Source: Stappia sp. ES.058 (GTDB lineage: Bacteria; Pseudomonadota; Alphaproteobacteria; Rhizobiales; Stappiaceae). From it: DNA of 64,000 nt. The stretch's first letter is position 1, and every line of letters begins with the position of its first letter. Below, in pieces: positions 43,795 to 61,201 of the stretch. The notes under the pieces were generated by a model. It searched no databases and was not told where the DNA came from. It saw only the letters and a program-made list of their open reading frames with translations. A program made the position numbers and the translations under genes. Location of the stretch: positions 4,562,155 through 4,626,154 of the forward strand of contig NZ_LT629784.1 of NCBI RefSeq assembly GCF_900105595.1. Direction: 5' to 3'.

Positions 43795-43803
43795 TTTGCC
43801 TCC

Positions 43804-45315
43804 TCAGCCTTCGCCGCCAGGATGCGAGCGGGCGTTGCGCCGACCGACGAGCACGACGATCACGGTCAGCGCCAGAAGAACCAGCATGGCGATCGTGACC
43901 GGACGCTCCAGCAGGAAAGACGGATCTCCGCCCGAAATCTGCCAGCTCCGCGTCAGTTCGCCCTCGGCCATCGGACCGATCAGCAGCCCCACGACCGTCG
44001 CCGTCACCGGGTATCCATAGCGCCGCATCACCCAGCCAAGCGCCCCGGCCCCGGCCACGGTCAACGGCCCGACCATCGAACCGGTTATCGCAAATGCGCC
44101 CATCATCGAGACCGCCAGCACGAAGGGGATCAGGTAGCTCAAGCGCACCTTGACGATAGAACTTGCAAGAAAGACGAAGATGATCCCGACGGCGATCAGC
44201 AGGATCGCCTGGACGATGTTGCCGAGGATCAGCGCATAGACGACGTCGGTGCTCTCGGAGATGAAGCGCGGACCGCCGGTCACGTTGTGCATCGCGAAGG
44301 CACCAAGCAGGATCGCCGTGCCCGCTCCGCCCGGCAGCCCGAGCGCGAGAAGTGTCACCATTCCCCCGCCCTCGGACGAGGAGTTGGCTGCCTCCGACGC
44401 GATAACGCCGTCCGGGTTGCCCTTGCCGAAACCCTCGGTGTCGGTCGAAAGCCGTTTGGCAGCAGCATAAGAAGCGAGGTTCGCAACGCTGGCGCCGACG
44501 CCCGGGATGATGCCGATGGCCGTTCCGATCGTCGAGCCGCGCAACACCTGTGGCCAGGCTCGTATCGTATAGAGCGCCCCCTTCAGGATCGGCTTGAGGC
44601 GCATTTTCCGCAGTTCCCGGTCGGCAACGAGGTAATCCCCCTTTCCGGCCATGTTGATCAGTTCCGAGGCAGCAAAGAGCCCGATCAATGCGGGGATCGC
44701 GGGGATGCCGTCGAGAAGGTACATGCTGCCGAACGTGCCGCGCATCAGGCCGGTGTTGGAATAGCCTATGGTGCTGACGAGGATGCCAAGCAGTCCTGCC
44801 GCGATGCCCTTGGCGACGCTGGAATCGTTCAGCACCGCAATCAGCAGCAATCCCCAGAGCGCGACCGAAAGCATCTCGGTCGGGCCCAGCATCAAAACAA
44901 GGCTTGCCACGGGGCTCACGATAAAGAGCAGGATCAGGTACCCAAAGAGCGTTCCGATTGCCGAGGCGACGAGCCCGATACCGAGCGCCTCGCCATGCTG
45001 GCCTGCACGGGACATCGGGTAACCGTCGAACGCGGTGGCCACGGCGCTCGAGGTGCCGGGGATGTTCATGAGGATCGCGGGCACCGCGCCGCCGAACCCG
45101 CCGCCGGTGAAGATAGCCGTCAGGAAAAGGATCGCCGGCAGGAAATCCATGTACAGCGTCGCCGGGAGAAACACCGCCATGGCGATCGAGATGGAAAGGC
45201 CGGGGATCGCGCCGAAGATCAGCCCGATGAAAAGCCCGGGAATCACCACCAGCCATGCCATCGGGTCGCTGCCGAGCAGGGTCAAGGCCCCAAAGAATGC
45301 GGTGAAGTCGATCAT
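43804..45315 (-). CDS. TctA-type tripartite tricarboxylate transporter large membrane subunit
   Basis: This 503-residue permease has about a dozen TM helices and the family signatures GLIFGAIPGLSISIAMAVFLP, FTGGGFGGAVPAILMNIPGTSSAVATAFDGYPM and GIIPGVGASVANLASYAAAKR. TctA is the large membrane component that works with TctB and the periplasmic TctC protein to import carboxylates. Fixed gene order tctC-tctB-tctA-leuC-leuD on one strand implies that the imported compound is the dehydratase substrate or product. Confidence 0.93.
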   Translation of the reverse strand: MIDFTAFFGALTLLGSDPMAWLVVIPGLFIGLIFGAIPGLSISIAMAVFLPATLYMDFLPAILFLTAIFTGGGFGGAVPAILMNIPGTSSAVATAFDGYPMSRAGQHGEALGIGLVASAIGTLFGYLILLFIVSPVASLVLMLGPTEMLSVALWGLLLIAVLNDSSVAKGIAAGLLGILVSTIGYSNTGLMRGTFGSMYLLDGIPAIPALIGLFAASELINMAGKGDYLVADRELRKMRLKPILKGALYTIRAWPQVLRGSTIGTAIGIIPGVGASVANLASYAAAKRLSTDTEGFGKGNPDGVIASEAANSSSEGGGMVTLLALGLPGGAGTAILLGAFAMHNVTGGPRFISESTDVVYALILGNIVQAILLIAVGIIFVFLASSIVKVRLSYLIPFVLAVSMMGAFAITGSMVGPLTVAGAGALGWVMRRYGYPVTATVVGLLIGPMAEGELTRSWQISGGDPSFLLERPVTIAMLVLLALTVIVVLVGRRNARSHPGGEG

Positions 45316-45347
45316 GATTGATTATGCTCCAGGACCATTCAGCGCCG

Positions 45348-45827
45348 TCAGACCAAAAGGACCGGCAGGCGGACCATCAACAGGTCGACAAAGACCCATG
45401 TGATCGCAGCCGCGCCGCCAATCGACGCCAGCGCAAGTTTCCACCAGCAGCGCTCTCCCTGCACCAGCAGGCAGAGAAGGATGAAGATCACGGTGCCTAC
45501 GTCGAAACCGATCCAGGGCACGGAGCAGGCGTACAGGCCGGTCAGCGCGATCAGGATGAGAGGCCGCGCCGCGTCGCCGCGTGCCGCCGCCACCAGCCGG
45601 TCGACAGTGGGTGATGTGCGGATATCGGCGATACCGGCCCAAAGCGCGGCCGCGGCGCCGATGGCCGCTCCGGGAACGATCAACAGCCAGTCGGTCGTGC
45701 GTCGCGCAACCTCGGCCACGGAAACGGCATAGAAAATCATGACTCCGGCGATGACAACGGCCAGACCGAGAGCTCCCCAGTTCCGGCGGCTTCGGGTCGG
45801 TCTTTCCTGTTTTTCCCCGTGCTGCAT
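45348..45827 (-). CDS. TctB-type tripartite tricarboxylate transporter small membrane subunit
   Basis: The 159-residue product has a charged cytoplasmic N-terminus and four TM helices, the usual TctB layout, and lies between the tctC-like and tctA-like genes. TctB proteins are poorly conserved; the assignment rests mainly on topology and position. Confidence 0.85.
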   Translation of the reverse strand: MQHGEKQERPTRSRRNWGALGLAVVIAGVMIFYAVSVAEVARRTTDWLLIVPGAAIGAAAALWAGIADIRTSPTVDRLVAAARGDAARPLILIALTGLYACSVPWIGFDVGTVIFILLCLLVQGERCWWKLALASIGGAAAITWVFVDLLMVRLPVLLV

Positions 45828-45885
45828 CTCGTGCCCCTTCGAATGGTCAATGGCGGGCGCAAAGAGTGCGCCCGCCGCGCGTCGA

Positions 45886-46893
45886 TCAGTTGATCACGCC
45901 GCTGAGTTCGGAAAGCGCCCCGTAAGCGCCATCCACCATCTCCTGGCTGGCTTCGGGGCCGATCCAATCCGAGCCTACGCCAGCTTCGCGGGCCGCAGCC
46001 TTGTATGCGTCGCTGGTGACGACCTTCTTATAGGCGTCGAGCAGTGCTTCGTAGCGGTCGGGATGCTCGTCCTTCAGGGCAGACGGCACGATCAGGCCGC
46101 TGATATTGCCGCCAATGATCGGCTGCTTTTCGGCCCCAAGCGCAACCAGCGCGTCATTCAGCAAGGGGGCCCCCATGCTGTCCGGATCATTGTCGTTGAC
46201 AATCGCGAGCACCTTGAGGCTGTCCATGATCGAAGCCGCGCCACGGGCGGCCAGGACCTCGAAATCGACCTGATTGCCGGCAAGCGCCGTCCGCAAAGGA
46301 GCACCGCCATCATATGTGACGAAGCGGACGTTTTCCACAGGGATGTCCAGCGCGTTCATGGCAAGGATGGTCTGAAGATGCCCGCCATTGCCGTAGATGA
46401 TCCCCGAAGACACGGTGCCCGGCTCTTTCATCGCCTCGACGAGTTGGTCGAAGGTCTCGTAGGGGCTGTCGTTATGTACCGCCCAGATCGCGTAGTCGTT
46501 CCACTGCGCGTTCAGAAGGCTGAAGTCCTCCCACTTGACCGGCGCGCCGCCAACGAGAATGGCATTGGCGAGATAGGGGGTCGCCTGCATCAACAGCAAC
46601 GTGTTTCCGTCTGCAGGCTGCTGGATGAGGTAGGTCGCCCCGAGGCCGCCTGCACCGCCGGGACGGTTCTCAACCACCACCGGAACGCCGAGCTCCTTGC
46701 TCATCGGGTCGGCCAGGGTCCGTGCCATTCGGTCTGCGGAGCCGCCGGCATTGAAGGGAACGATGATCGTGATCGGCCCTTTGGGCCAGCCTTCGGCGGC
46801 CTGAACGGTGCCGGTGCCGAGACCCAGAGTAAACAGGGCTGCGGCCGCGAGACCAAGGAAGCTGCGACGCGAGGCGTCTTTGAAACTAGGCAT
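45886..46893 (-). CDS. TctC-type periplasmic carboxylate-binding protein
   Basis: The 335-residue protein has an N-terminal signal with Arg-Arg (DASRRSFLGLAAAALFTLGLG), which may be a Tat signal. A Bug/TctC fold follows (WPKGPITIIVPFNAGGSADRMAR, VVVENRPGGAGGLGATYLIQ). It captures the substrate for the TctA/TctB pair. The start follows GGGAGGATCAC. It is the first gene of the minus-strand operon, divergent from the GntR-type regulator gene. Confidence 0.92.
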   Translation of the reverse strand: MPSFKDASRRSFLGLAAAALFTLGLGTGTVQAAEGWPKGPITIIVPFNAGGSADRMARTLADPMSKELGVPVVVENRPGGAGGLGATYLIQQPADGNTLLLMQATPYLANAILVGGAPVKWEDFSLLNAQWNDYAIWAVHNDSPYETFDQLVEAMKEPGTVSSGIIYGNGGHLQTILAMNALDIPVENVRFVTYDGGAPLRTALAGNQVDFEVLAARGAASIMDSLKVLAIVNDNDPDSMGAPLLNDALVALGAEKQPIIGGNISGLIVPSALKDEHPDRYEALLDAYKKVVTSDAYKAAAREAGVGSDWIGPEASQEMVDGAYGALSELSGVIN

Positions 46894-46952
46894 GTGATCC
46901 TCCCAGAATATTGTTTAGGCTCGATTCGCCTACCCCAAATTGCTAAATAATC

Positions 46953-46970
46953 CTATTGTTATGTCAATAG
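46953..46970. promoter_or_regulatory. Palindromic operator between tctC and gntR-type genes
   Basis: CTATTG-TTATGT-CAATAG is a perfect 6+6 dyad in an AT-rich patch of the 173-base divergent intergenic region, 60 bases upstream of the tctC start and 97 before the regulator start. It is the best candidate binding site for the GntR/UTRA regulator encoded beside it. Confidence 0.5.
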
Positions 46971-47066
46971 TACATTTCACTTGGATTGGGCGTTCGAAGC
47001 GACTAATCATTGTGAAAGAGATTGCTCATCCTGTTGAAAGACACCGCTCATCCTGTTGGAGGAGGC

Positions 47067-47894
47067 ATGAAGAAGACGCTTATCGAAGGATCGACGCACC
47101 CCCGCATACAAGCGGATGATACCCCGCTTCCCAAGCACCACCGCGTCTACCTCGTTCTCAGGCAAGAGATCGAGGACTGGGTCTATTCCGATACCGAGCC
47201 GATGCAGGGCGACCTCGCACTGGCAGAGCGTTTCGATGTTTCCCGGATCACGATACGCAAGGCGATGGACCGTCTGGCTGCCGAGCGCATGGTCGAACGC
47301 CAGCGTGGCCGCGGCACGTTCGCGCGCAAGCGGGACGGCCAGCCGTCCCCCGTCACGGCGAGTCTTTCGGGAAATATCGAGAACCTGCTCGCGCTTGGCC
47401 TGCAGACCGACGTCGACCTCATCGAATTCACCTATGCGGTCGCGCCGCCACACATTTGTGCCGCCATGAACCTGCCTGCCGGAACGGTCATGCAGCGCGC
47501 GATCCGGGTGCGCAGTCTCGACGGCCTGCCCTTCAGCCATTTGACGACATGGCTGCCCGAAGAGATCGGGCGCAGCTTCGGCGCCGAGCAGATGCGGCAG
47601 ACGGCGCTTCTGCGTCTGATCGAACGTGCGGGACACCCGATCGCCTCGGCACGCCAGGTCATCACGGCCAAGCTCGCCACTCCGGAGGTCGCAAATCTGT
47701 TGGAAATCGAGCCCGGCGAGGCGCTGCTGGCGGTGCGCCGCATCGTATACGACGAGGCTGGACGGGCGGTCGAGCACATCAACGGCCTCTACCGGCCCGA
47801 CACATACGAACATGAAATGGAATACGTCCGCAGTCGCACCCCGGAGGCGGAATTATGGACAACCCGAGACACACGCAACGGGGCCGACACATGA
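47067..47894 (+). CDS. GntR-family regulator with UTRA ligand domain
   Basis: The 275-residue protein has a GntR winged helix (about 25-90, GDLALAERFDVSRITIRKAMDRLAAERMVERQRGRGTFA) and a UTRA effector domain (HutC subfamily, about 105-250). It should repress the transporter-dehydratase operon and the downstream lyase gene until the substrate or a derivative binds. The start follows GGAGGAGGC. The stop overlaps the lyase ATG by 4 bases, so regulator and lyase are one operon. Confidence 0.93.
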   Translation: MKKTLIEGSTHPRIQADDTPLPKHHRVYLVLRQEIEDWVYSDTEPMQGDLALAERFDVSRITIRKAMDRLAAERMVERQRGRGTFARKRDGQPSPVTASLSGNIENLLALGLQTDVDLIEFTYAVAPPHICAAMNLPAGTVMQRAIRVRSLDGLPFSHLTTWLPEEIGRSFGAEQMRQTALLRLIERAGHPIASARQVITAKLATPEVANLLEIEPGEALLAVRRIVYDEAGRAVEHINGLYRPDTYEHEMEYVRSRTPEAELWTTRDTRNGADT

Positions 47895-48751
47895 GCGATT
47901 TGAAAACCATGCTGGCCGATTCGAGCCGCGGCATAGTAGCGCCGGGGGTCTACGACGCCTTGACCGCGCTTCTGGCCGAGCAGGCCGGGTTCGACTGTCT
48001 TTACCTCTCCGGCGCCTCGATCGCCTATTCAAGGCTGGGTCGGCCCGACATCGGTCTTGTGTCGGTGTCCGAAGTAATTGCGACCACCGAGCTCATCACC
48101 GATCGGGTCGACCTGCCCGTGATCGTCGATGGCGACACCGGCTTTGGCAATGCGCTGAACGTGCAGCGCACCGTACGCGGCTTCGAACGCGCGGGCGCAC
48201 AGGCGATCCAGCTTGAAGACCAGAGCTTTCCAAAGCGCTGCGGCCATCTTGCCGGGAAGAAGCTGGTCGGCAAGGAGGAGATGGTCGGCAAGATTCGCGC
48301 AGCCCTCGATGCCCGCGACAGTGATCGTCTTCAGATCATCGCGCGTACCGACGCCATTGCCGTCGAAGGGTTCGATGCCGCCCTCGCGCGGGCCGAGGCT
48401 TATGCCGAGGCTGGTGCCGATGTCCTCTTCATCGAAGCGCCGCGCTCGCCGGAACAGCTGGGCGCGATCGCCGAGAGGTTTTCCGGACATGTCCCCCTGC
48501 TCGCCAACATGGTCGAGGGAGGGATGACCCCGATGAATTCGGCGCAGGATTTGCACGACCGCGGCTTTCGCATCGTCATATTCCCCGGCGGTGCCGCCCG
48601 TGCAATGCTGCGTCAGGGCCAAGCCTATTACGCGAGTTTGAAAGACAACGGCAGCAACGCCCCGTTTCGTGAGCGGATGGCTGATTTCGACGAACTGAAT
48701 GACGTCATTGGCTTGCCCGAGATGCTGGAGTCCGCGAAAAAATACGAATGA
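47891..48751 (+). CDS. PrpB-like lyase (isocitrate lyase/PEP mutase superfamily)
   Basis: The 286-residue protein has the Mg-binding Asp80 and Asp82 (VDGDTGFGN) and the lyase-specific motif KRCGH with catalytic Cys117, which separates true lyases from phosphonopyruvate enzymes. Members cleave 2-methylisocitrate or 2,3-dimethylmalate. The neighbouring LeuCD-like hydratase matches the Eubacterium barkeri nicotinate pathway, where dimethylmaleate hydratase is followed by dimethylmalate lyase giving propionate and pyruvate; this is the best guess for substrate. Methylcitrate-cycle partners (prpC, prpD) are absent. Confidence 0.88.
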   Translation: MSDLKTMLADSSRGIVAPGVYDALTALLAEQAGFDCLYLSGASIAYSRLGRPDIGLVSVSEVIATTELITDRVDLPVIVDGDTGFGNALNVQRTVRGFERAGAQAIQLEDQSFPKRCGHLAGKKLVGKEEMVGKIRAALDARDSDRLQIIARTDAIAVEGFDAALARAEAYAEAGADVLFIEAPRSPEQLGAIAERFSGHVPLLANMVEGGMTPMNSAQDLHDRGFRIVIFPGGAARAMLRQGQAYYASLKDNGSNAPFRERMADFDELNDVIGLPEMLESAKKYE

Positions 48752-48899
48752 TGCAGCGCCTTGTTTCACAAATCGGCTGAGGGGCTCACCGCGTGACACG
48801 GTGCTGTCAGACCAATTCGAACCAGTCTCTGCAAGGACAGTGAGGCTGCCCCTTGTGCCGCGCTGTGAACAGCCCCTGGGGTCTTTGACGCCTTGAGCT

Positions 48900-49440
48900 A
48901 CTCCCCGGATCGTTGGACAGATTTCGGCGTAACTCAAGCCACTCGTTGTATCTGCCGATCAGATTGGTGTTGTTGAACGCTATTGCCAATAGACCACCGC
49001 AGGCGACCTGTCGCCAGGGGCTGAATGCGGGGGCTTCCGATTGCATAAATCACTCCATTTCCGGACACCGGCCTGGCCCGTTAGCCGGCTTCCCATGGAT
49101 CGAGATGCGCACGCCGAGACCTGGTTCGACCGGTCCACCCTCAGTCCCTTGAGCAGATATGGCCAGATCTTGTGTCCCTTGGCCGGTCTTGAGGTGTTGG
49201 GCTTCTGGTCGATCGGCATCAGACCCATGAGCCGCATCAGCCGCATGATCCGCTTCCATGGACGGATCATGGTGGGATGAACTTCCGAAGAACTCGCCCT
49301 TCCGAGACCGGTTCCTCGCCCCCTCAGGGCTTTCAGGGCGACCTTCGCCTTGCTCCCCGCGCGCGCTGCTTGCGTTTCGACATCTCAGACCTGCATGTTC
49401 TTGAAGACCGGCACACCACAAGCCGGAGCTTACGTCAGAC
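48900..49440 (-). mobile_element. Degenerate IS3-family remnant
   Basis: The clearest piece is at about 49080-49250, where the minus strand reads RIMRLMRLMGLMPIDQKPNTS, then AKGHKIWPYLLKGLRVDRSNQV. This matches IS3-family OrfB just before its first catalytic Asp, but the frame then fails. No ends or target duplications could be defined. The whole gene-free stretch 48752-49570 lies between the lyase gene and the recombinase gene. Confidence 0.55.
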
Positions 49441-49570
49441 CGATTTTCGGGAGGTCCTCCGCTCTCTCCCCCGAGGGCTCTGTGACACAGCCTACATCAC
49501 GGCTTTCAGGAACATTATTTGATAATTTAAAAGAGGTACCGCTTCTTCGATTTCCTTCGAGGAGGCAAAA

Positions 49571-50548
49571 TTGGAACTATCGGATCTGGAAGGGGCAGCA
49601 CGGCGCTTTGTGCGTGAGTGTCGCGATATCAAATCGTTGTCGGCGAATACGATTAGCGCATATGAGCAAGATCTTGCTGAGTTCGAGGTGTTTTTCGGGG
49701 CGGAGGAGGTCGGAAGCGAGATCGATGTGACTCTCGTTGGCGATTATATCCAGTGGCTGCGCGAGAGGCGGGAACTCAAGCCGGCAACGATCCGGCGGCG
49801 CATCGCGTGCCTCAAATCCTTCTGTCGTTGGTTGAAGGAACAGGGGCTGGCTTTACAGTCGCCTTTTGACGAGAAGACTATTGTCGTCCGTATCCCCAAA
49901 AGATTGCCCCGAGCCCTGACCCGAAGCCAGGCCAGTCAGGTCGCAAAAGCGGTTTCCGAAGAGCCAAGAGTTGCGGGTGTCCCGCGACGGGGAGACGCGA
50001 TGCTATCGCAACATGACCCCTTGTCGGATCCATGCGATCCAAGGGTGACGACCCATCTCGCCGTAAGCCTCATGCTCGCCTCGGGAATGCGGGTGGGTGA
50101 ACTGACGGCAATCCGACTGGGCGATATCGATCCGACCTGTTCTGTGATCAACATTACCGGAAAGGGGTCGAGGGAACGAACTGTCTTCCTGACCAACGCC
50201 CGATTGGTGCATGTGCTCCGCCGTTATATCGCCGCGCTTGTGGAGCATTGCGCGGCGGATAACGTCCTCCTGCGCAATGCACGAGGCAGGGCTTTGACCC
50301 CGCAGGCGCTACGCCTTCGCCTGCGCAAGCTTGGAGACCGTCTGGCCTTTTCGCAACGCCTCACTCCGCACCGGTTCCGACATACGGCCGCGACGATCCT
50401 TCTGGAGGAAGGCGTAGACATCCGCTACGTCCAGCGCCTTCTTGGGCATTCCAGTATTTCGACAACCGAGATCTACACACATGTGACGGATGTAAGCCTT
50501 CGTCAAGCGCTGGAACGAGCAGATGTGGTCGGGCGAGTGGGGATTTGA
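49571..50548 (+). CDS. Tyrosine recombinase (XerC/D-like integrase)
   Basis: The 325-residue protein has an N-terminal SAM-like core-binding domain (1-100) and the catalytic residues Arg174 (SGMRVGELTA), Lys198, His267 and Arg270 (TPHRFRHTAA), His293 (LGHSSISTTE) and nucleophile Tyr302 (IYTHV). All are present, so it is probably active. A 15-residue loop near 136-150 is longer than in XerC/D. The start is TTG after GGAGG. It lies immediately upstream of the inverted-repeat-bracketed pair and may mobilise that cassette or the larger island. Confidence 0.9.
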   Translation: MELSDLEGAARRFVRECRDIKSLSANTISAYEQDLAEFEVFFGAEEVGSEIDVTLVGDYIQWLRERRELKPATIRRRIACLKSFCRWLKEQGLALQSPFDEKTIVVRIPKRLPRALTRSQASQVAKAVSEEPRVAGVPRRGDAMLSQHDPLSDPCDPRVTTHLAVSLMLASGMRVGELTAIRLGDIDPTCSVINITGKGSRERTVFLTNARLVHVLRRYIAALVEHCAADNVLLRNARGRALTPQALRLRLRKLGDRLAFSQRLTPHRFRHTAATILLEEGVDIRYVQRLLGHSSISTTEIYTHVTDVSLRQALERADVVGRVGI

Positions 50549-50564
50549 GGAGGGAGATGTATCG

Positions 50565-50585
50565 ATAACTGAGAATTATCAATGC
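50565..50585 (+). repeat. Left copy of 21-bp perfect inverted repeat
   Basis: The repeat begins ATAACTGAGAATTATC and contains the ATG of the ATP-grasp gene (50582-50584). With the base before it, it forms a GATAA-CTGAGAA-TTATC dyad. Its only purine-rich ribosome-binding candidate, GAGAA, sits in the dyad centre. The identical sequence recurs in inverted orientation at 54201-54221. Confidence 0.9.
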
Positions 50586-51694
50586 CATCGACGGTACCAA
50601 GATGGGCTACAGTTGCCGAGTTGCAGGCGCTTATCGACCTCACGATTGAGCAGGCTCACAGTACGGCGATCCTTATAATAGCTGACGATACTGCAGCAGC
50701 GGACCGCATGAGTTCGCTCAAATCGGTGAGATTTCAGGAACGAATGATCAGCGACACCGAGTTGAACTTCCTTGCTGGGACGTTTCAGCGCTGCGGGATC
50801 GCATGTCAGACGGTTTTTGGTTTTGAGAGGTTCATGCAGCTTGCCTTGGAGGGAAAGGCTTTTCCGGCGAGGGCAAGCACCACAGTAGTGTTAGATAAAA
50901 CAGAAGGCGGAGGACATCGCGACGGATTTGGTCCAGCACGGCGTTCAATGGGCGCTCTCCTGGCTAGGCTGTTCGGTTATCACTATGGGCATGCCGACGC
51001 CTACTCTGCGGCGATCACCAGACACAAGCATCACCAATCGATGCTCATGCGCCAAGCAAAAATCGGGGTGCCTGATACCTGGTCATATGACAGCAAACAT
51101 GGCTGGATTACCGGAAAACCAAAACCGGGGAAAAAGGTGATTTGCAAGTCCACGTACGAGGCGTGGAGTATAGGGGTCTCAGAGAGCACGGTCGGCCCTT
51201 TCGACGAAGCGATGGAGCGTCGCATCGCAGATTTGGCCGACGATATCGGTCAGCCTGTTTGCGTTCAGGAATTCATTGAAGGACGCGAAATCTACGCGCT
51301 TGTCGTGGACAACGGCACACCGATGATGGTTGGACTAGCCGAAGCAAGTTCTTCTAACGGTCCAAAGTCAAACGGAAGCTATCTGGTATTCGATGATCAT
51401 TATCGTCCGGGTGGGATTGTTTACAGTGACTGCGACGATCTACCAGAAAAGACACGGTCAGCGATCGCGGATAACGCCCTAAGCACCTTTGCGCTGATGG
51501 CGATGTCAAATGTTGGTCGCGTCGACTTTAGGGTGACATCGGCTGGCAAAGCCTACGTGATTGATATCGCTGACAACCCTGGAACGTCTGAGGCGAGTTC
51601 ACTTGCACACATTCTCAAGAAGCGTGGAATCGCATTTGAAAACACCCCTCTTCTGCTTATCGGGGCAAGCCTCAGTCAAGAGCTACGCCGCTAA
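50582..51694 (+). CDS. ATP-grasp ligase, D-Ala-D-Ala-ligase-like
   Basis: The 370-residue protein has an ATP-grasp fold. A lysine-containing strand (VICKSTYEAWSIGVSES), the loop CVQEFIEGREIYALVV, a metal-binding GRVDFRV and VIDIADNPGTSEASSL resemble D-Ala-D-Ala ligase and related peptide-forming enzymes. It should join a carboxylate to an amine through an acyl phosphate; no substrate or precursor peptide is evident. The ATG is inside the left inverted repeat, and the TAA shares bases with the TAG of the convergent STAND gene. Base composition is less GC-rich than the core genes. Confidence 0.82.
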   Translation: MPSTVPRWATVAELQALIDLTIEQAHSTAILIIADDTAAADRMSSLKSVRFQERMISDTELNFLAGTFQRCGIACQTVFGFERFMQLALEGKAFPARASTTVVLDKTEGGGHRDGFGPARRSMGALLARLFGYHYGHADAYSAAITRHKHHQSMLMRQAKIGVPDTWSYDSKHGWITGKPKPGKKVICKSTYEAWSIGVSESTVGPFDEAMERRIADLADDIGQPVCVQEFIEGREIYALVVDNGTPMMVGLAEASSSNGPKSNGSYLVFDDHYRPGGIVYSDCDDLPEKTRSAIADNALSTFALMAMSNVGRVDFRVTSAGKAYVIDIADNPGTSEASSLAHILKKRGIAFENTPLLLIGASLSQELRR

Positions 51695-54204
51695 TACATA
51701 GACCAAAATTGCACATCTGGCATCCTGAAACCGCGACCAATTTCGATCCAACACGGATGCAAAGGATTGTCCTCTTCGTTGAGAGGATAAGTATCCCAAC
51801 TTGCTGGGGATAACGCGCACGGTTTGTCAAAAAGGGGCGCCATTAACTCATGACGTCTTTTCAGCAAATGCCTAGTTTCGTATGGAATGCGATTAACGAC
51901 TTCGCCCAAAGCGGCCCATTCAGCTTTGCTAGTCTTAGGGCTTTCACCGTTTAGAAACCTGGCACAGCACAGGTTTGAACTCACGAAATAAAGGGGATTC
52001 GGCTCAGGATCGCCTATCTTTTCGAGCTGAGCTTTCAGTTCGCAGAATAGCGCAATTCCTTCTTCTAGCTTTTTGGAAAGACAGTAATAAACAGCCAGAT
52101 GGTTCTTGGTATAGTAGGGATCGCCGCTCAAGCCATAGTTTTGGATGACAGCGATCAGCTCGTCCGCCGCCGCCGCTGCCGATACGGCACCCCCACGATA
52201 TTGGGCCATGACGAGCATGGAGCGCACCATGTCGCTTCTGGGAAAAGCAACATCCTCAAACCTATCAGCCAGCGCCACCGTTTCTAGCGCTAGCGACTCC
52301 GCAGCGCTATAGTTTCCGTTGCCGATATTAAGTGCTGTCAGATTAGTCAGACAGCGAAAGTATTCAGCCGGCTCCTTTGGAGTGCCCCCAACCTCCGGCC
52401 TATGAAATTGTACAGCCCTCTGGGCGCGATGAAGCGCTATGTCTGGAAGGAACAAGCTCTCCGCGCTACGACCTAGCATATGGATTTTTGACTCGGCCAT
52501 TTCGTCGTATCGGATCCTTTCGCTGAGCCTCCGGGTCAGATCTCCTTCGATGGAGCGTGCTCTGGTCTTGTCAAACTCCAACACCAGACCGGAGCGATAC
52601 AACATGGCGAGACGTAATCCCTGCTCGAATTCCGCGTCGATGTGGTGCCCCCATTCCTTTAGCCTTTCGAGCATCCTTGCCCTTCTAACGGCATCTCGCG
52701 AGTTGAGGTCGCCTTGGGATCGAACATACTCAATTTCTGCCAGTACAAGCGGAGAGTATATTGGACTTTGTTGATCCATGAGCGTGCAAGCTTCGTCAAA
52801 TCTTCCTCTGGATAGCAGTGAATATGCCTCCTGGAGGCAATCTGCTAGCGGCCCCAGTCCCTCTTCGAGAACGAGCTCTTTCTCTTCGGAGTGCATGAGG
52901 TGATGCGGTGGTCGTCCGAAGCGTAGGTTTTCTGCGGCGGCTGCGACAAAAAGATCAGCGGCACTCTTGCGGTCACCGGACTTCAAGATGTTTCGCGCTC
53001 GCCTTTGATAATCGTGAGGGGTGAGCTGGCGTAAGCATTCTGAGAAGGCTCGACGTAGTGTCTTTTCTTCCGGCCCGAGATCCTTGGCAAAAAACTCCTT
53101 TATGTATTGGTGGCGAAACTCCACTACATCACCGCGATCCTCCAAGAATCCAAAATCTCGACATAACTGGATCGCTAGCTCTGGATCACTTCCATTGTGT
53201 CGATAGACACAAAGCAGCTCCACCCGTGAGGCCGTATTTCCGATGACCGAAGCTGCGTGAAGCAGTTCCTTTGCGACATCTCCTAAAGTTCCAATGCTTC
53301 GTAAGCGCTGCAAGAAGAGGTCTTCGACAAATCGCGCGCGGTCTTCCGGCGCCAGCTCATTCACGGTGGTTCCACTATCGCTTAGGTAACGGCAGGCCTC
53401 ACCAATCACTGCGAGATGGCCGCCGCTTATTCCATGTACAAACTCAAAATCCTCATCCTTGACTGCGTCCGGGATGGCAAGTGCCTGTCGTAGGGTCCGT
53501 AATTGGGAGCGCTCAACGTACCCCATTTCGATCTCTACCGGAAGCAGCGGCACTACGTGCTTGGAGTAAGCCTCCCTCCAAATCGGCTGCTGGTAATCAG
53601 AATTTGTCGTCGTTGCTACTACCCGCAGCTGACCGAGAAACGGGAAAGCAGTCACAACTTCCCGCTTCAGCATCGTGCGTAGAAGGGAAAGAGAGTCCCG
53701 ATCCCACCAGTGCAGGTTTTCGACGATTAATAGCGCCGGTCTTCCACCTGCGTGGACCGCGAGATCTGAGAGCACAGATTGCTCGTCTTCCGCCAGGAAC
53801 ATGGAGCCACGCTTGCGCCTTGCAGCTTCGGCATCTAAGGCTTGGAGAGCACCTTCTGCATCAAACATCCCTCCCGAAGCCACCTTGGCAGCAACATTTG
53901 CTAACGCTTTTCCCACTGTGACCGCCGGCTTGAAGTAGCCAGACGTTTCAGCCTGAGCACGTTGCAGGGGGTACAATCGGCGGTTCGCCTCACCATCATC
54001 TCCTACCCCACGAAATGCGACGCCACCCGCCTCGACAAAGCTTGCGCCGATACTGCGCGCCAACCAGGTCTTGCCGCACCCGGGCGGCCCAGTGATCACT
54101 GCCGCACTCACGTCGCCGGATAGTATTCTGCCCAGCATGTCGGACACTTTATCTTGAATACCTATGGCGGTCCATAAACGCGCATCGGGCTGCCGCTCAC
54201 GCAT
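51691..54204 (-). CDS. STAND-type ATPase with helical repeats
   Basis: The 837-residue protein has Walker A GPPGCGKTW (39-47), a Walker B-like PALLIVENLHWWD, and a winged-helix-like region, followed by about 450 residues of TPR-like helices. This is the layout of signal-transducing STAND ATPases (AAA_16 and MalT-like proteins). No C-terminal effector domain or helix-turn-helix is recognisable. Such proteins often act as regulators or phage sensors. The ATG is inside the right inverted repeat, and the stop overlaps that of the ATP-grasp gene by 4 bases. Confidence 0.82.
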   Translation of the reverse strand: MRERQPDARLWTAIGIQDKVSDMLGRILSGDVSAAVITGPPGCGKTWLARSIGASFVEAGGVAFRGVGDDGEANRRLYPLQRAQAETSGYFKPAVTVGKALANVAAKVASGGMFDAEGALQALDAEAARRKRGSMFLAEDEQSVLSDLAVHAGGRPALLIVENLHWWDRDSLSLLRTMLKREVVTAFPFLGQLRVVATTTNSDYQQPIWREAYSKHVVPLLPVEIEMGYVERSQLRTLRQALAIPDAVKDEDFEFVHGISGGHLAVIGEACRYLSDSGTTVNELAPEDRARFVEDLFLQRLRSIGTLGDVAKELLHAASVIGNTASRVELLCVYRHNGSDPELAIQLCRDFGFLEDRGDVVEFRHQYIKEFFAKDLGPEEKTLRRAFSECLRQLTPHDYQRRARNILKSGDRKSAADLFVAAAAENLRFGRPPHHLMHSEEKELVLEEGLGPLADCLQEAYSLLSRGRFDEACTLMDQQSPIYSPLVLAEIEYVRSQGDLNSRDAVRRARMLERLKEWGHHIDAEFEQGLRLAMLYRSGLVLEFDKTRARSIEGDLTRRLSERIRYDEMAESKIHMLGRSAESLFLPDIALHRAQRAVQFHRPEVGGTPKEPAEYFRCLTNLTALNIGNGNYSAAESLALETVALADRFEDVAFPRSDMVRSMLVMAQYRGGAVSAAAAADELIAVIQNYGLSGDPYYTKNHLAVYYCLSKKLEEGIALFCELKAQLEKIGDPEPNPLYFVSSNLCCARFLNGESPKTSKAEWAALGEVVNRIPYETRHLLKRRHELMAPLFDKPCALSPASWDTYPLNEEDNPLHPCWIEIGRGFRMPDVQFWSMY

Positions 54205-54221
54205 TGATAATTCTCAGTTAT
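54201..54221 (-). repeat. Right copy of 21-bp perfect inverted repeat
   Basis: It is identical over 21 bases to 50565-50585 in opposite orientation and contains the ATG of the STAND ATPase gene (54202-54204). The flanking bases differ on both sides, so the identity ends exactly at the repeat. Confidence 0.9.
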
Positions 54222-54330
54222 GTGAAATTGACAATCACACTACCCTAGCGGAAGAAGCGTATCTGGCAACCGCAAACTGCTACCGCTTGTGTTCCACCGC
54301 TCGACGTCTTTGCCCGCGAAAGGAGCGCTC

Positions 54331-56619
54331 TCAATCCACCGCATCCAGAACCGCTCTCGCCATCGCTGGCAGCATCCGCGTTAACTCAGTGTGATCCCTC
54401 GCCCAAAGTCGCCGCAGCAATGACACCGGGGCATAGTCGTCATATTTAGCGGTCTCGAAGCTCTCGATGAATTCGGCGAGTGCCTGCGATGTCGGTGGCG
54501 GCGTGGTCGCCATGTGTTTCAACAGGGATCGGGCTTCCTCCAGGCTGGTATCTTCCAGTGTGATGCCGACATCGTGCGGCCAGGCTTTGACCCCTGCGCC
54601 GAGGAAGGCGAGGGCCAGGAGCGCATTCGCCTTGCTGCCGCGCCAGGTGAAGAGGTGCAAGGCTTCGTCTTCAGGCAGAAGCCGGCAGCTTTCGAGCCTC
54701 AGCTCGAGGAAAGTCTTGCGGGCCTCGGCAAGCATCCGGCGGGCTTCGGCGTCCAGATAGGGCGGGGTTGCATTTTCCAGAAGGACGTTCCGCATTTGGG
54801 CGACGAGACGGTCGTGAACCGGTTCGGCAGCCTGATCCGCGAAAAGCGGCACCTTGCCTGCCCGGTGTTGCACGACTTGAAGCACCTTGCCCGGCTCATC
54901 GACTGTTTCCACGCGCCAGCGGCGGCCGGCAAAAAGCAGGATCGAACCCGGGCCGACCTCGTTGAAAAGCGGGATCGTGCCGAGAAAGCGGTCGCCGGCG
55001 ACGAGCCGCCATTCCTGGTCGGTGGGAAAGATCGCGTAAAAATCGCGCGAGGTCGTCAGCCGTTCGCCTTCCGGACCGAGCATGATGGTGCGGTCCGGTG
55101 CCTGTTCGAGAAGGGCCGGATCATGCGCTGCCATGGCCCGCAAAAGCTCCGCGTAGTCGCTTGTGCTCAGCGCGGAGAGAGGGCCGGTGCCGCAAATCGC
55201 CCGATAGAGCGTGTCGGCGCGCGCGCCACCCTGGGCTGCAATGATCGACAACGTTTGATGCAGAGCGACGGTTACGTTGGCCGGATCTGCCTCCGGCGGC
55301 TCGATGAAACGCTCGACAAGAAGTTGTATCGAGGCGATCGCCTGGACGAGATCGAGCCGCAATCGGTCGAGCGGGCCACTTTCGGGAAACAGGTGCGGCG
55401 CGCGGCAATAGATGCGCAGGATCGCCGGCGCGCCCTTGCGCCGACCGCTGCGACCGAGCCTCTGGCGCAATGAGGCAAGCGAGCGCGGGGCGCCGACCTG
55501 GGCGACCGAGACGACGGAACCCAGATCAATGCCAAGTTCCAGCGTCGTCGTGGCAACGGCCGTGGTCGGCAGGTCGCCCTGTTTCAAGCGCGCCTCCACC
55601 TCGTGGCGTGCATGGCGCGAAAGGCTGCCGTGATGGGCGAAGAACTCGTTTGGAACATTGTGTCGCTCGGCGCGGCGCTGAAGCCGGTCGGTGATGGCCT
55701 CGACCATCTTGCGCGATCCGCCGAACACAAGGTTGTTGCTGCCGCGCAACGTGTCGAACATGTGGTCGCCGATCCCGTCAAGCGCGCGCACCGGCGGCTC
55801 GTCGCTCTCCACGATATCGAAGAAGTCCACGTCCGCAGGCTCCTCGTAGCCACGGATCTGGAGCTTCAGTTCCGGAGATCCGGTCCTGGCCTCGATGATG
55901 TGGACGTTCGCGGTGTCCTCCCAGTTCAACCAGCGCGCAGCGATGGTGAGATCACCGATCGTGGCGGACAGGCCAACCCGACGGGGCCGCTTGTCCGCAA
56001 GCGCATCGATGCGGCGAAGCAGGCTCGCCAGATGCAGGCCGCGCGGCCCCTGAAGGAAAGCGTGCAACTCGTCGATGACGATGAATTCGAGCCCGCCGAA
56101 AAGCCGTCGGGCCGCCTCGGGCTTGCGCACCAGCAGGGCTTCGATCGATTCCGGCGTGATCAGCGCGATGCCGGCCGGATTGCCCAGCACTTTCGCCTTG
56201 GCCCCGGCCGGCGCATCCCCGTGCCAGCGCACGACCGGAATGTCGAGCCGTTCGCACAGCGGTTCCAACCGACGAAACTGATCGTTGATGAGAGCCTTCA
56301 GCGGGCCGACATAGAGCGCGGACAGTCCTCCGCCTTCGTGCTCTGCGATCCGGGTCAGGACCGGGAGAAACGCGGCTTCCGTCTTGCCTGCTGCGGTCGC
56401 CGCCGCAACGAGGACATCGCCGGTTTCTTCCAGCACGGCGCGGATCGTCTTTTCCTGCACATCGCGCAGTTCCGACCAGTTCTGCTCCCAGATCCAGCGG
56501 CGGATCTGCGGGTGCAGCCGGTCAAAAGCCGCGATCTCAGAGGCGGAGGGAGGCAAGGTCGCCATCGCTGCCCGGGCCTGGGTCTGAGCTTGCGTCGCCT
56601 TCGTCCTCGGCACCGTCAT
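54331..56619 (-). CDS. sngC: Lhr-like DEAD/DEAH helicase, Shango SngC-like
   Basis: The 762-residue superfamily 2 helicase has motif I AATAAGKTEAAFLP (near 73-86), Ia/Ib (YVGPLKALINDQ), motif II DELH, motif III SATIG, and motif VI RQRLGRSGRR, followed by an Lhr-like C-terminal region. It is shorter than full-length Lhr. It comes after the DUF2791-type ATPase gene (overlap of up to 83 bases) and the TerB gene, the gene set of the Shango anti-phage system. An ATG at 56565 is an alternative start that would shorten the overlap. Confidence 0.85.
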   Translation of the reverse strand: MTVPRTKATQAQTQARAAMATLPPSASEIAAFDRLHPQIRRWIWEQNWSELRDVQEKTIRAVLEETGDVLVAAATAAGKTEAAFLPVLTRIAEHEGGGLSALYVGPLKALINDQFRRLEPLCERLDIPVVRWHGDAPAGAKAKVLGNPAGIALITPESIEALLVRKPEAARRLFGGLEFIVIDELHAFLQGPRGLHLASLLRRIDALADKRPRRVGLSATIGDLTIAARWLNWEDTANVHIIEARTGSPELKLQIRGYEEPADVDFFDIVESDEPPVRALDGIGDHMFDTLRGSNNLVFGGSRKMVEAITDRLQRRAERHNVPNEFFAHHGSLSRHARHEVEARLKQGDLPTTAVATTTLELGIDLGSVVSVAQVGAPRSLASLRQRLGRSGRRKGAPAILRIYCRAPHLFPESGPLDRLRLDLVQAIASIQLLVERFIEPPEADPANVTVALHQTLSIIAAQGGARADTLYRAICGTGPLSALSTSDYAELLRAMAAHDPALLEQAPDRTIMLGPEGERLTTSRDFYAIFPTDQEWRLVAGDRFLGTIPLFNEVGPGSILLFAGRRWRVETVDEPGKVLQVVQHRAGKVPLFADQAAEPVHDRLVAQMRNVLLENATPPYLDAEARRMLAEARKTFLELRLESCRLLPEDEALHLFTWRGSKANALLALAFLGAGVKAWPHDVGITLEDTSLEEARSLLKHMATTPPPTSQALAEFIESFETAKYDDYAPVSLLRRLWARDHTELTRMLPAMARAVLDAVD

Positions 56620-57865
56620 CAGTGTCTGCGGCGAGTTCGACGTCGCCCAGCAAGGACCGCCAGTCGGTTCCCGGGTTCTGGTCGAGAACGGCCAACAGTT
56701 GCACGAAGGCCTTGATGGTGGAGCGCGGCGTGCGGAAATAGGCCTCGCCGATGCGCTGGTTGCAATGGGCCATGAAGGCCGTCAGCGCCTCGTCCGGGAC
56801 GAGATAGTGCTCCGGCTCGCCAAGCGCGAAGACCTTGCGGATGTTGCCGAGCAGGACGAGCAGTTCTTCCGGCGTCAGGCTTTGAAGCCTAATGACGGGG
56901 CCCGTGAAGTCAACGAGGCCGTTGCGGGCGAAAGCATTTTCAGCCAGGCGCGATTGCAGTGCCGGGTAGCTGTAGAGACCGCGACGGGTGTCCATCAGGA
57001 ACTCAGGCGTTCCGCCGAACAGGAAGCCGAGACCCGAAACGCTTCCTTGAAGAACGTCGTTCAGCATGGCGAGTATCTGCTCGAAATTCTGGTTCCGGGC
57101 TTGTGCGCTTTGCAGCTTGTAGAGGTTCACCATCTCGTCGAAGACGACGAGGAGCCCGGCATAGCCCGCCTGCCGTACGAAAGCTGCCAAGAGCTTGAGC
57201 CCGTCATAGACATCCGCATCGTCGATGATCGTGCGCACGCCAAGCGCCTGCCGGGCCTCGGTCTTGGTGGAGTATTCCCCGCGCAGCCAGCGCAGCGCGG
57301 CTCCTTTGAGGATTTCGTCGTCGCTCTCGCTGCCGCGCCAGTAGGCTTTCAGCACGGTTGCGAAATCATAGCCGCCGACGAGATCCTGCAAATGAGCAAG
57401 ACGTTCGTCGATGACCTGCTCGACCGGAACGCCGTTTCGTTCGCTTTCGCGGGTGCACCCGGTGACGAATTTTTCCACCACGCTTGCAAGCGCACCGCCA
57501 TCCGGCTTGGTGCGGGTCGCCATGTTGCGGACGGCTTCTGCATAAAGCCCGCGCGCCTGGCCGCCTGTTGCATGGATCCGGCGATCGGGGGCGAGATCCG
57601 CATGAACCGTCACCAGTTTTCGTTCCAGCGCGATAAGGCGGGTAAGGTTGAGAAAGAAGGTCTTTCCGGCACCATATTCGCCGATGATGAAGCGGAGTGC
57701 GGCTCCGTCGCCGGCGATACGGTCAATATCGCGCACGAGCGCGGAAACCTCTCCGGCGCGACCGACCTGAACATGCTGCAAACCAGTGCGCGGAACGACG
57801 CCTGCCGCGAGCGCCTGAAGGATCGTGTCCTTATCCTTGCCGCGGATGGGCTTTTGCGTGCTCAT
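56537..57865 (-). CDS. sngB: DUF2791/BrxD-like ATPase, Shango SngB-like
   Basis: The 442-residue P-loop ATPase has Walker A FIIGEYGAGKTFFL (62-69 core) and Walker B GLLVVFDEMVNL, with TPEFLMDTRRGLYSYPAL as a family signature of the BrxD-like DUF2791 proteins. The start at 57865 overlaps the TerB gene stop (ATGA), so translation depends on the TerB frame being read through. The C-terminal 35 residues are acidic and disordered. With an Lhr-like helicase next to it, it fits the ATPase of the Shango defence system; BREX type 2 has a similar ATPase-helicase pair, but no other BREX genes are here. Confidence 0.85.
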   Translation of the reverse strand: MSTQKPIRGKDKDTILQALAAGVVPRTGLQHVQVGRAGEVSALVRDIDRIAGDGAALRFIIGEYGAGKTFFLNLTRLIALERKLVTVHADLAPDRRIHATGGQARGLYAEAVRNMATRTKPDGGALASVVEKFVTGCTRESERNGVPVEQVIDERLAHLQDLVGGYDFATVLKAYWRGSESDDEILKGAALRWLRGEYSTKTEARQALGVRTIIDDADVYDGLKLLAAFVRQAGYAGLLVVFDEMVNLYKLQSAQARNQNFEQILAMLNDVLQGSVSGLGFLFGGTPEFLMDTRRGLYSYPALQSRLAENAFARNGLVDFTGPVIRLQSLTPEELLVLLGNIRKVFALGEPEHYLVPDEALTAFMAHCNQRIGEAYFRTPRSTIKAFVQLLAVLDQNPGTDWRSLLGDVELAADTDDGAEDEGDASSDPGPGSDGDLASLRL

Positions 57866-60195
57866 GAGCGCATTTCCTTCGTTTCCCGACATATTTCATG
57901 CAACAGCGGCCGCATGTGTTCGGCCACCGTCAGTTCATCGTCATCCTCGAGAACGGGTTCGTCGTAGAGCTCGAAGCCCCATTCGTTGATTGTCTCGATC
58001 GCGCCATCCGGCAGCACGCGAAGTTCCTTCGCGCGTCCCTCGAAGGCCGAGCGCTCGACCCGTTGTTCAGTGAGCAGGAAGAGAAGGAGATCTCCGTGTT
58101 CCGTATCCAGGCCGTCGAACGGCCGCCGGTGCGAACTTGCCTGGGGACGGTGAGGGGTGACCGAGGCTTCCTCTTCGATGAAAATTTCGGAGAGAAGACT
58201 GGAAACGGCACTGGTCTCGGAAAGGATACGGGTCAGTCGATCGTTGTCGATATCCACTTGCGCCCTTGTTGCAGATACAGGTGCCGGTGCCGGAGGCGGC
58301 GGAATGGGATGTCCGGGCTCCGATGTTTCCGTCATGACCGTGACGGGCTCCTCGGCGACCACGTTGCCGCTGTGAAGGGCGCCATAGAGCTCTTCCTTCG
58401 GGAAGCCCAGCGTTTTCCAGAGCTTCTCGATGAAGACGACTTCCGAGTGCGAGACATGACCGTCGGCAAGGACGACGGCCACGGTGGCCTGCGCGACGCG
58501 GCGGCGACCGGCGTCGTCCAGTTTTGCCAGTCCCTTCATGAGCGCGCGGCTGTTGGCGGTGCCGCCAAGGAGGGCGCTGGCGTACGCAAGGAGACGGACG
58601 CGCTCGACAGGACCAAGCCCGGGTACCGCACTTATTTCCTGCTGCAGGGTCGCAAGTTCGCTCGCATCCACGACGCCGTCGGCCCAAGCGGCCAGAGCAT
58701 TGATTTCCACGATGGTCCGCGCCGCGTGGAACTGCGCGCGATCCTGATCCACAGCCGCCGCATTGGCGGCCCGGAAGAAAACGACCGTACCATCGGGGGG
58801 AGGCGGAACCGCACCGTAGCGACGGTCGGGTTCATAGCCGATGTCGAGCCGGTCGAGCGCGGCGCCCAGCTTGTTGAAGAGGGAGGCGGGACCTTCCCCT
58901 CTCCCGGCGCTCCCAATCCCACCTTTTCGCAAAGCTCGGCCAAAGCGATCTTGCCCGTTGGCCGTCCGGCAAACGTCTCGGAGATTTTTTGCGAAAGTGC
59001 CTTGAGGGGATTGTCATCGTCGCACGACAGGAAGGCCTTTGGCAGAAGCACCGCGGCCTCGGTGCTTTGCGCATCCTCCGGCCGCTTGCCGACAAAGCGG
59101 CTGTAGCTCTCCAGGTCGCTCGTGCAGGTCTCCGCGATGGCGGCGAAACCTTTCAGCGGGCTTGTCAGGCTCGTGATGTCAGGAATTGCTGTGGCACCGG
59201 TCAGGGTGGCCGTGAAGGTGCCGCTGGCGGCTCGGTAGCCGGTATTCTTCAAGGTGCGCTTTGGCGTGCGGACCTTGAGGCCTTCGGGATGACGTTCCTG
59301 AAAACGGATCTTCCAAAGGGTCTGGAACAGATCAAAGCACCGTTTTGCCGGTGTTCGCAGGCGCGTCTCGGGCAATGATACGAACCAGAGCAGGCAATCT
59401 TCCGCGTCGAGGACCTGACCATCGGCAAGCCGGGCACCCAGATACAGGCGTGCGGGGAGGGGGAATTCGAAGCCGTGACTTGCCTCGGCGTCGATTTCGG
59501 GTCTCGTGCGGAGATTGCCGGAAAGCGGCGAGGCAAATTCGAGGAATTGCGTTGCGTAGTTTCGAAACGATCCGTTTCGGCCATAAATCGAAATCAGGCG
59601 CCGCACTTCATCGATGATGGCGTCATTGTCTCGAGACGCCTCATCGACGAAAAAAACGTCGCTCGAGGCCATAAAAATAGAGAAAGACGTACCCGATAGA
59701 GGCATCGGGATCGTCGCGCGCGGATGCCAGCCATTCGAGATAGGATCGGCGGGCATTCGGATGGATCCGGCTATAGGAGGGCCAATACGGCATGGACTGA
59801 CCGGCGGGATCACCTCCGCGGCCGATCATGAGGCTGGGATTGACGAGGCAATTCTCCGGTTGATCGAAATCCGTCGCGCAAAGCGATTGTCCGAAATAGA
59901 AATTCCCGCCCAATATCTCCAAGCCGGCGATTGCGACCTTGTCTCCGGGAGACACCCAGCGTGCGGGAGATGCCGCTGAAGCGGTTTGCCTTGAGGATTT
60001 GTATTGTCGGGACGCACCCGCTTGTTGCCAGCGCTCCTCCGGGATCCCTGACATAGTGGCCTGCGAGGGCGAAGAACTTCCTGTGGCGCCTTCTTGTCGT
60101 CTGAAAATGTAGAAAATGACGGCAATACCGGCGAGAATCAGCAAGAGTTCCAAGTCTCTTCCTCCAAGAGCTTGGTTTGAAACAGATTGCAGCAT
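57862..60195 (-). pseudogene. sngA: TerB_N/TerB/TerB_C protein with two frameshifts, Shango SngA-like
   Basis: Three consecutive frames together make one protein of about 777 residues. Segment 1 (60195 to about 59650) has an N-terminal TM helix (LELLLILAGIAVIFYIF) and the start of TerB_N (SRIHPNARRSYLEWLASAR). Segment 2 (to about 58897) completes TerB_N. Segment 3 (to 57862) has the TerB helical domain (ALAAWADGVVDASELATLQQE) and TerB_C. The first break is at an A7/T7 run (59650-59656), where one base too many is present. The second is at a C4/G4 run (58896-58899), where one is missing. Either the gene is dead, or the frames are joined by slippage, or the runs are sequencing errors. Confidence 0.75.
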
Positions 60196-60269
60196 GGCAC
60201 AGGACCATCCCGCATGGGAAGGTTCCCGTGCAGAGCCTGTTCCACTGAAATGCGGGGAGTAGTTCAAAC

Positions 60270-61162: not shown

Positions 61163-61201
61163 GAAGCCGACGAAAAAGAGAACTACACCTACGCTATAGC
61201 C
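61163..61201 (+). repeat. 39-bp direct repeat, copy 1
   Basis: It begins GAAGCCGACGAAAAAGAG and is 38/39 identical to 62336-62374. In one frame both copies read KPTKKRTTPT followed by one residue and TAG, so they may be duplicated ends of a gene. Confidence 0.8.

Follow-up and report, generated by a model that had tools for sequence, protein, structure and literature searches.

The window analyzed here is a 64,000-nucleotide (nt) stretch of Stappia sp. ES.058 DNA, the last 64 kb of a single-contig genome of 4,626,154 bp (contig NZ_LT629784.1, positions 4,562,155 to 4,626,154). At window positions 50565..54221 it carries a 3657-bp segment enclosed by two inverted copies of a 21-bp sequence. 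The left recombination site (50565..50585, + strand) begins with the core dyad ATAA-CTGAGAA-TTAT (50565-50579, spacer CTGAGAA at 50569-50575) and contains the ATG of an ATP-grasp gene at 50582. The right site (54201..54221, - strand) is its inverted copy and contains the ATG of a STAND-type gene at 54204-54202, so that the start-codon offset from the core start is 17. All 21 nt of the two arms are complementary, 3615 nt separate the arms, and the two convergent open reading frames (ORFs) meet in a 4-base overlap of their stops. These coordinates confirm the preliminary description, which had noted a perfect 21-bp inverted repeat holding both start codons, a 4-base stop overlap and an identity that ends at the repeat edges. 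It had also seen a GATAA/TTATC-like dyad: ATAA-CTGAGAA-TTAT is there, but the outer G of GATAA is found on the left side only. A purine-rich stretch in the site falls at the expected position of a ribosome-binding site, which agrees with the earlier suggestion that GAGAA could be one. Next to the segment, a gene for an Xer-like tyrosine recombinase of 325 amino acids (aa) (49571..50548, + strand) reads into it and stops 17 nt before the left site core.

The runner-up inverted match within 50000-54800 covers 20 nt at 75%, and by our own estimate 3.7 kb would contain a 21-bp inverted match by chance with a probability of about 1e-6. With up to three mismatches allowed, the whole genome holds the 21-mer only at the two segment sites (it is listed at four places because the contig ends overlap), so it is not a common dispersed repeat. 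When the window is scanned for inverted ATAA-N7-TTAT pairs, one equal pair is found, the segment's own. A chance repeat was rejected, since the next-best match is far weaker, the 21-mer is otherwise absent from the genome and the viral control described below contains no equal pairs.

Aligned with each other, the first and the last ~24.8 kb of the contig show 0 mismatches and 27 indels of one base, 13 of which sit in runs of three or more. The overlapping ends (window 39173-64000 against contig start 1-24845) resemble an untrimmed circular assembly, and are as expected of one presumably made from long reads. Window positions 39173-50585 and 54201-64000 are colinear with the contig start, while the 3657 bp between them are 100% identical there (3657/3657) and in the opposite orientation, the alignment switching orientation exactly at the 21-bp repeats. 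Because the segment is reversed between colinear, fixed flanks, both orientations exist in the sequence data of this genome. On the evidence of the assembly, the 3657-bp unit is an invertible segment. This supports the earlier suggestion that the repeats are recombination ends for the adjacent tyrosine recombinase, as do homologous cassettes, whose sites are of the same type and mostly adjoin a recombinase of the same clade. Transposon ends were also considered as an explanation of the repeats and rejected, the exchange being observed within one locus.

The ATP-grasp gene (50582..51694, + strand) encodes a 370-aa enzyme with a D-Ala-D-Ala ligase (Ddl) fold. It matches Dala_Dala_lig_C (E 2.7e-14), a profile of four window-like ATP-grasp proteins matches Ddl structures, and its structural model (mean predicted local distance difference test score, pLDDT, 62.4) matches Ddl folds at E 4.6e-13. 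Its best score against the curated D-Ala-D-Ala ligase families is 67.7 bits, for a cut-off of 243. As it passes the Pfam domain cut-off and falls below the family cut-off, it is an ATP-grasp protein of that fold and not a demonstrated Ddl. The facing gene (51691..54204, - strand) encodes an 837-aa STAND-type NTPase with a helical, TPR-like C-terminal half. AAA_16 is matched above cut-off (E 8.5e-12) and the model shows an NTPase plus a helical array, giving the order of a P-loop NTPase followed by helical repeats, albeit at modest model confidence (mean pLDDT 61.9). The best fold match, at E 1.6e-9, is to the TPR-sensor STAND protein of PDB 6mfv, and EfAvs5 and plant NLR structures rank lower. 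Each of the two models was built on 3-4 sequences. No effector domain was recognised in the window STAND protein. When the trio of window genes was submitted to PADLOC, no family was returned for the recombinase or the ATP-grasp enzyme and only mad8 for the STAND protein (E 5e-4), which does not amount to a known anti-phage system.

The recombinase matches Phage_integrase at E 4.1e-36. It scores 202 bits against the XerC model (cut-off 335) and 186 against XerD (cut-off 330), and it belongs to a separate clade, so it does not qualify as an orthologue of either. XerD-like and XerC-like genes are present elsewhere in the genome; they were labelled by score and place in the tree, with the XerD model alone searched, and the XerD-like gene scores 328.5, just under the cut-off. 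In a tree of 36 proteins, one branch splits 21 cassette recombinases from 8 XerD and 7 XerC proteins with support of 99/96. Two of the 21 adjoin a lone site (L217, L221), that of L207 lies 6 kb from its cassette, and one from genome G091, ungrouped in a first tree, was later counted as a cassette recombinase when locus L254 showed a cassette.

Searches by protein similarity and by the core pattern revealed paired sites around other gene cassettes, 27 in all with the window included. Eight were compiled by protein similarity, 15 by a site scan and the genomes it led to, and the remaining 4 by a class sample and a fetch around a G091 recombinase; L207 and L208 are nearly the same cassette and are both counted. 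The site scan, with the pattern ACGATAACTNGRAATTATG over a collection of 84,980 species genomes, gave 34 stretches: 18 in inverted pairs, one (L123) at the contig end of a split pair, and 15 partnerless, two of these beside a recombinase (L217, L221) and one at a gene start (L220). We estimate that about 15 chance matches are to be expected in such a scan. The pattern contains ATG, so one start per cassette found in this way is built in; the class-sample pattern has none. That looser pattern, ATAACTNGNAATTAT, was applied to 385 genomes sampled evenly from the class and matched in 32 of them, with an inverted pair of equal spacer 2-4 kb apart in five (G007, G028, G082, G091, G327). This is an undercount, because the window's own spacer CTGAGAA falls outside the pattern. 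In the search by protein, sampled genomes added G091, G028 (with frameshifted genes), G818 and G813. With two spacer bases free to vary, the close inverted pairs had equal spacers in 20 cases out of 20 (15 from the site scan, 5 from the class sample). As a control, 70 stretches of viral contigs (655,200 bases, 128 occurrences of ATAA-N7-TTAT) yielded 54 unequal and 0 equal inverted pairs at 1-8 kb. The same stretches (L132-L201) each contain the loose site pattern once, with no equal inverted partner at 1-8 kb in the part fetched. The rule of equal, inverted ATAA-N7-TTAT pairs finds further cassettes from DNA alone.

Protein similarity led to seven ATP-grasp/STAND pairs, counting that of the window, and all of them have the repeats, so the repeat-less homologous pairs that would have spoken against the preliminary description were not encountered; three further pairs were found through the sites themselves and do not count in this respect. 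Equal inverted site pairs are absent from all 24 loci with an ATP-grasp match and no STAND match (L007-L019, L030-L035, L081 and L083-L086, representing 21 places because L030-L032 include L007-L009). They include 13 of the 15 matching genomes of one scan, ten of which (L010-L019) were viewed with flanks of at most 1.5 kb and three fetched at 12-14 kb (L030-L032). L033-L035 likewise have ATP-grasp without a STAND match, and L081 and L083-L086 come from another scan of 16 matching genomes, of which G537, G579, G618, G701, G769, G786 and G1050 were left out. A missing STAND match is weak evidence here, because tblastn misses distant partners, as it did that of G813. Another scan had 20 matching genomes; apart from G000 and G028, the matches (18 genomes) cover part of the model, and these genomes were left out. 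A single-protein scan of genome contigs led nowhere, and alignment scans of viral contigs gave L036 as their sole match, which by eye looks like a phage replication contig.

The 27 cassettes have a common anatomy. In every one, as in the window, the 15-bp core ATAA-N7-TTAT is identical at both inverted ends, crossover region included. Of the 54 cassette ends, 53 have the start of an ORF of 100 aa or longer no more than 60 nt from the site. Forty-eight ORF starts lie 10-20 nt from the core start, and 34 of these use the ATG of the half-site TTATG (offset 13). The gap between the 3' ends of the two genes ranges from -64 to +30 nt, except in L057, G813B and L206. The spacer differs between cassettes and is identical within each pair, as is needed for crossover sites. 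It is 7 bp long in the window, L027 and L028 (found as plain repeats), in L029, and in L080 and L082 (where 5-9 were allowed); for cassettes found with the 7-bp pattern this length is built in. Since many spacers are purine-rich at the position of a ribosome-binding site (CTAGGAA, CTGGGAA, CTGAGAA), the spacer perhaps serves as one. Twenty-one of the 27 cassettes have a recombinase gene no more than 220 bp from a site. It reads into the segment in 17 of these, with its stop at most 17 nt from the core in 14, and is divergent in the other four, with 117-220 bp between. In L213 (7685-8737) the recombinase frame extends across the site and on into the cassette, and inversion would give the protein a different C-terminus.

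A STAND-type NTPase facing an enzyme was read as one of the two genes in 18 cassettes, some on weak matches. Fifteen of these were scanned with Pfam, and L029, L057 and L080 were assigned by tblastn similarity to the window protein. The curated NTPase cut-off is clearly passed in seven (the window, L027, L118, L209, L210, L254 and G813B), L205 is at the cut-off, and seven fall below it (L028, L108, L125, L204, L206, L213 and G813A), the weakest being L108 (E 4e-4) and G813A (E 8e-3). The STAND partner is an ATP-grasp protein in 10 cassettes from 10 genomes and a glycosyltransferase of family 2, 4 or 9 in five; the glycosyltransferase ORF of L206 starts 590 nt inside, behind a 240-aa ORF at the site. 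A carbamoyltransferase, a serine-hydroxymethyltransferase-like protein and a phosphoenolpyruvate-mutase/methyltransferase protein occur as partners once each. In the other nine cassettes neither gene was read as STAND. L251 pairs a glycosyltransferase with a TIR-effector-like/HEAT protein, and in the others a protein with no or weak Pfam match accompanies a methyltransferase (L252), a weak ATP-grasp match (L253), a glycosyltransferase (L211), UbiA (L207, L208), a CDP-alcohol phosphatidyltransferase (L212), PAP2 (L202) or a cyclopropane-synthase-like protein (L203). Where a STAND cassette has an adjacent recombinase, the adjoining gene is on the enzyme side in 11 cases out of 13, a count that leaves out the window, which shows both states. 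The STAND gene adjoins it in Paenibacillus and in the second G091 cassette.

The plasmid pMRAD01 of Methylobacterium radiotolerans carries a recombinase, an ATP-grasp gene and a convergent STAND gene, with 24% identity for both proteins, and a plasmid of Paenibacillus sp. IHBB 10380 carries the same three genes. Perfect inverted repeats stand at the gene starts in both (17 bp in Methylobacterium, 30 bp in Paenibacillus), and the gene next to the recombinase differs, being ATP-grasp in the former and STAND in the latter. In G813, two cassettes flank a single recombinase (L082/L087/L088, G813 2370475-2381317), each with its own spacer: the first holds STAND-like and ATP-grasp genes (CTGGAAA), and the second a carbamoyltransferase, a STAND gene and an extra gene (CTAGGAA). 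For tyrosine recombinases in general, such differing spacers should stop the two cassettes from recombining with each other. By eye, genes upstream of the G813 cassettes resemble a type I restriction-modification set.

Draft assemblies also break at the sites. The segment of Burkholderia sp. WAC0059 (G1136) forms a separate contig of 3508 bp that starts at the outer repeat edge, and the flank contigs of 143,915 and 20,691 bp end exactly at the inner repeat edge. In two Pseudoalteromonas luteoviolacea genomes the segment contigs measure 3582 and 4078 bp, and flank contigs end in the site (two in DSM 6061, one seen in S2607). In G091 only one end of the segment contig falls in the site, and the other runs 79 bp beyond the repeat. 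Such a short repeat should break a short-read assembly only if the reads contained both types of junction. Mixed orientations would thus produce contig breaks like those inside the sites of three other draft genomes. The recombinases of these two P. luteoviolacea genomes are 79% identical to that of a third, IPB1, and all three carry different gene pairs (L204, L216, L222, L223): serine-hydroxymethyltransferase-like/STAND, STAND/ATP-grasp, and large NTPase/glycosyltransferase. DSM 6061 and IPB1 have a common far flank with, by eye, a cyoE-like gene. In Roseobacter and Sulfitobacter (L218 6789, L219 7030), a solitary well-formed site is shared among the same neighbours. It has no partner there and no listed gene starts at it, so the locus has perhaps been emptied.

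In the mechanism that we propose, the tyrosine recombinase (49571-50548) would recombine the two inverted dif-like sites and so flip the 3657-bp segment. Because each start codon is built into a site, both proteins would be left intact, and with equal 5' ends the inversion would swap the genes without harming either, changing only which of them adjoins the recombinase. That gene would probably be co-transcribed with the recombinase, because the recombinase stop and the site, as in the other loci where the recombinase reads in, are too close together to leave much space for a promoter or terminator, and the far gene would lose this transcription. The population would then be made of two cell types, ATP-grasp ON or STAND ON, and recombinases of this clade would also run similarly designed cassettes that contain different pairs of genes. 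The DNA itself shows that inversion takes place at the sites, that the anatomy is conserved and that the recombinases form their own clade. We put the probability that this is a site-specific DNA inversion switch, exchanging whole genes around a fixed promoter side, at about 0.85. Catalysis by the adjacent recombinase is highly probable, because it adjoins the segment and belongs to the cassette clade, and either/or expression of the two genes is reasonably likely.

Several observations weigh against such a switch. Six of the 27 cassettes have no recombinase adjoining the segment on the same contig: in L108, L118 and L125 it is at the end of another contig, L029 has no known one, that of L207 is 6 kb away, and none is present in the 15 kb fetched for L212. 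The first recombinase tree gave the branch only 65/96; it contained one wrong row, an ill-chosen ORF for the G818 XerC (branch length 10), and the value of 99/96 was obtained after this row was dropped and the tree rebuilt. A promoter scan found no consensus promoter before the recombinase. At the other end, the Shango-like genes beyond the segment read towards it and could drive the far gene, and a promoter-like match, TTGTCA-16-AATTAT, overlaps the site and is directed into the far end, and some expression of the far gene may therefore persist. Both genes could then be expressed in either orientation from promoters on each side, inversion merely shifting their ratio or timing, and enzyme and STAND protein would form one immune system. 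The recurrence of ATP-grasp with STAND in 10 cassettes from 10 genomes is what interacting partners would give. However, the same design also joins enzymes with non-STAND partners, and no gene common to the far sides of the loci was seen in the ORF lists, which were compared by eye and not systematically, setting aside the three P. luteoviolacea genomes and the L218/L219 pair. We therefore regard joint expression as doubtful.

The sites might instead serve mainly to capture and exchange gene modules, as in pdif modules or integrons, with inversion as a side effect and both genes needed together. The wide variation in cassette contents is in keeping with this, as are the two cassettes at one recombinase in G813 and the P. 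luteoviolacea genomes, where similar recombinases, and in two cases a shared far flank, go with different gene pairs. Yet capture requires neither a single inverted pair, nor matching cores, nor gene starts at the sites, all of which an expression swap does require. The loci that were fetched show no direct-module array, and inversion itself was observed, making module capture an unlikely primary role. An assembly artefact could be suspected in an untrimmed contig whose ends are as error-prone as the 27 indels indicate; the breakpoints are nevertheless exact to the base at the sites, the segment copies are fully identical, sites of this kind also break the assemblies of other species, and the recombinase-adjoining gene differs between relatives, which leaves this explanation very improbable. 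The contig ends could also be a real 25-kb duplication in place of an overlap, which would need an inversion too. The second option of the preliminary description, a shared operator or RNA switch for equal expression, would work without recombination and could appeal to the overlap of the dyad with the would-be ribosome-binding site. The opposite-orientation copy already contradicts it, and contig breaks at the sites, together with spacers that are identical within pairs and different between cassettes, leave it next to no chance.

DNA inversion switches themselves are already well known. The Mu G and P1 C segments (Gin, Cin) and the e14 P segment (PinE/PinQ) are likewise invertible, with orientation deciding which proteins are made, and the crossover layout of phage Mu G is of the same kind as that of e14. 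These systems use serine recombinases, whereas the segment described here presumably uses an Xer-like tyrosine recombinase, at dif-like sites that hold the start codons. In the Escherichia coli e14 P segment the crossover lies inside both coding regions and chimeric proteins result, and inversion by PinQ blocks adsorption of phage T2 (PMC12529663); here whole unrelated proteins are swapped instead. Reversible inversion at short inverted repeats causes phase variation through tyrosine recombinases such as RecV (PMC5903667, PMC11868660). The fim switch, the RecV switches of Clostridioides difficile and invertons work likewise, but in invertible promoters it is the promoter that flips; in our segment a pair of genes is turned over, and the promoter side presumably stays fixed. 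The hsdS inversion systems differ in that specificity parts of one single protein are shuffled. Their PsrA is likewise a tyrosine recombinase, which inverts DNA in Streptococcus pneumoniae (PMC7096588).

XerC/XerD-dif and pdif share with our sites the ATAA and TTAT half-sites around a short spacer, as well as a related recombinase, and pdif modules lie between inverted pdif sites. The E. coli dif, which we located, has six bases between the same half-sites, in contrast to seven here. Our segment differs further in its recombinase, of its own clade and additional to the genome's XerC-like and XerD-like genes, and in the start codons within the sites. XerC/D recombination is also known to act on resistance plasmids (PMC9947245). 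With Avs and other STAND/NLR-like immune proteins, the window protein shares an NTPase and a repeat sensor; unlike the Avs type, it has no recognised effector domain and its PADLOC match is weak. In the main text of a paper on STAND conflict systems, neither "invert" nor "inversion" occurs (PMC7159879). In searches of the open-access literature, which omits most subscription journals and preprints, we recognised no description of this design, in which the crossover sites hold the start codons, a pair of unrelated genes is exchanged whole and the recombinase has an Xer-like clade of its own. Start codons inside the crossover site make the two genes exchangeable whole, a simple genetic part.

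Recombinases often adjoin anti-phage genes, where their defence function is unknown (PMC12529663). For one clade, our data offer a concrete and testable role: inverting cassettes that offer a choice of two genes, one of which often encodes an NLR-like protein. An immune function of the cassette, at somewhat short of even odds, may be suggested because of the STAND partners, the Shango-like genes next door, the TIR and QatC genes annotated near the Methylobacterium copy and the restriction-modification-like genes near G813. More tentatively still, these could be modular switches for immune bet-hedging against phages, in which an Xer-like clade flips cassettes of an enzyme against an NLR-like sensor, at sites that double as translation starts, and so splits clonal cells. 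If this is true, cells that alter their surface or metabolites (by glycosyltransferase, carbamoyltransferase or ATP-grasp) would coexist with cells armed with an intracellular STAND sensor.

The Shango-like defence genes themselves (54331..59813, - strand, identified with PADLOC) are context and lie outside the switch. They comprise SngC (54331-56619, E 1.4e-247), SngB (56537-57892, E 1.3e-177) and SngA (57862-59813), whose pieces match at E 7.2e-37 and 2.3e-16. This last gene, which encodes a TerB protein, is split into two overlapping frames, and the split may be a sequencing error, because one of the 27 one-base differences between the contig ends falls in the frame overlap.

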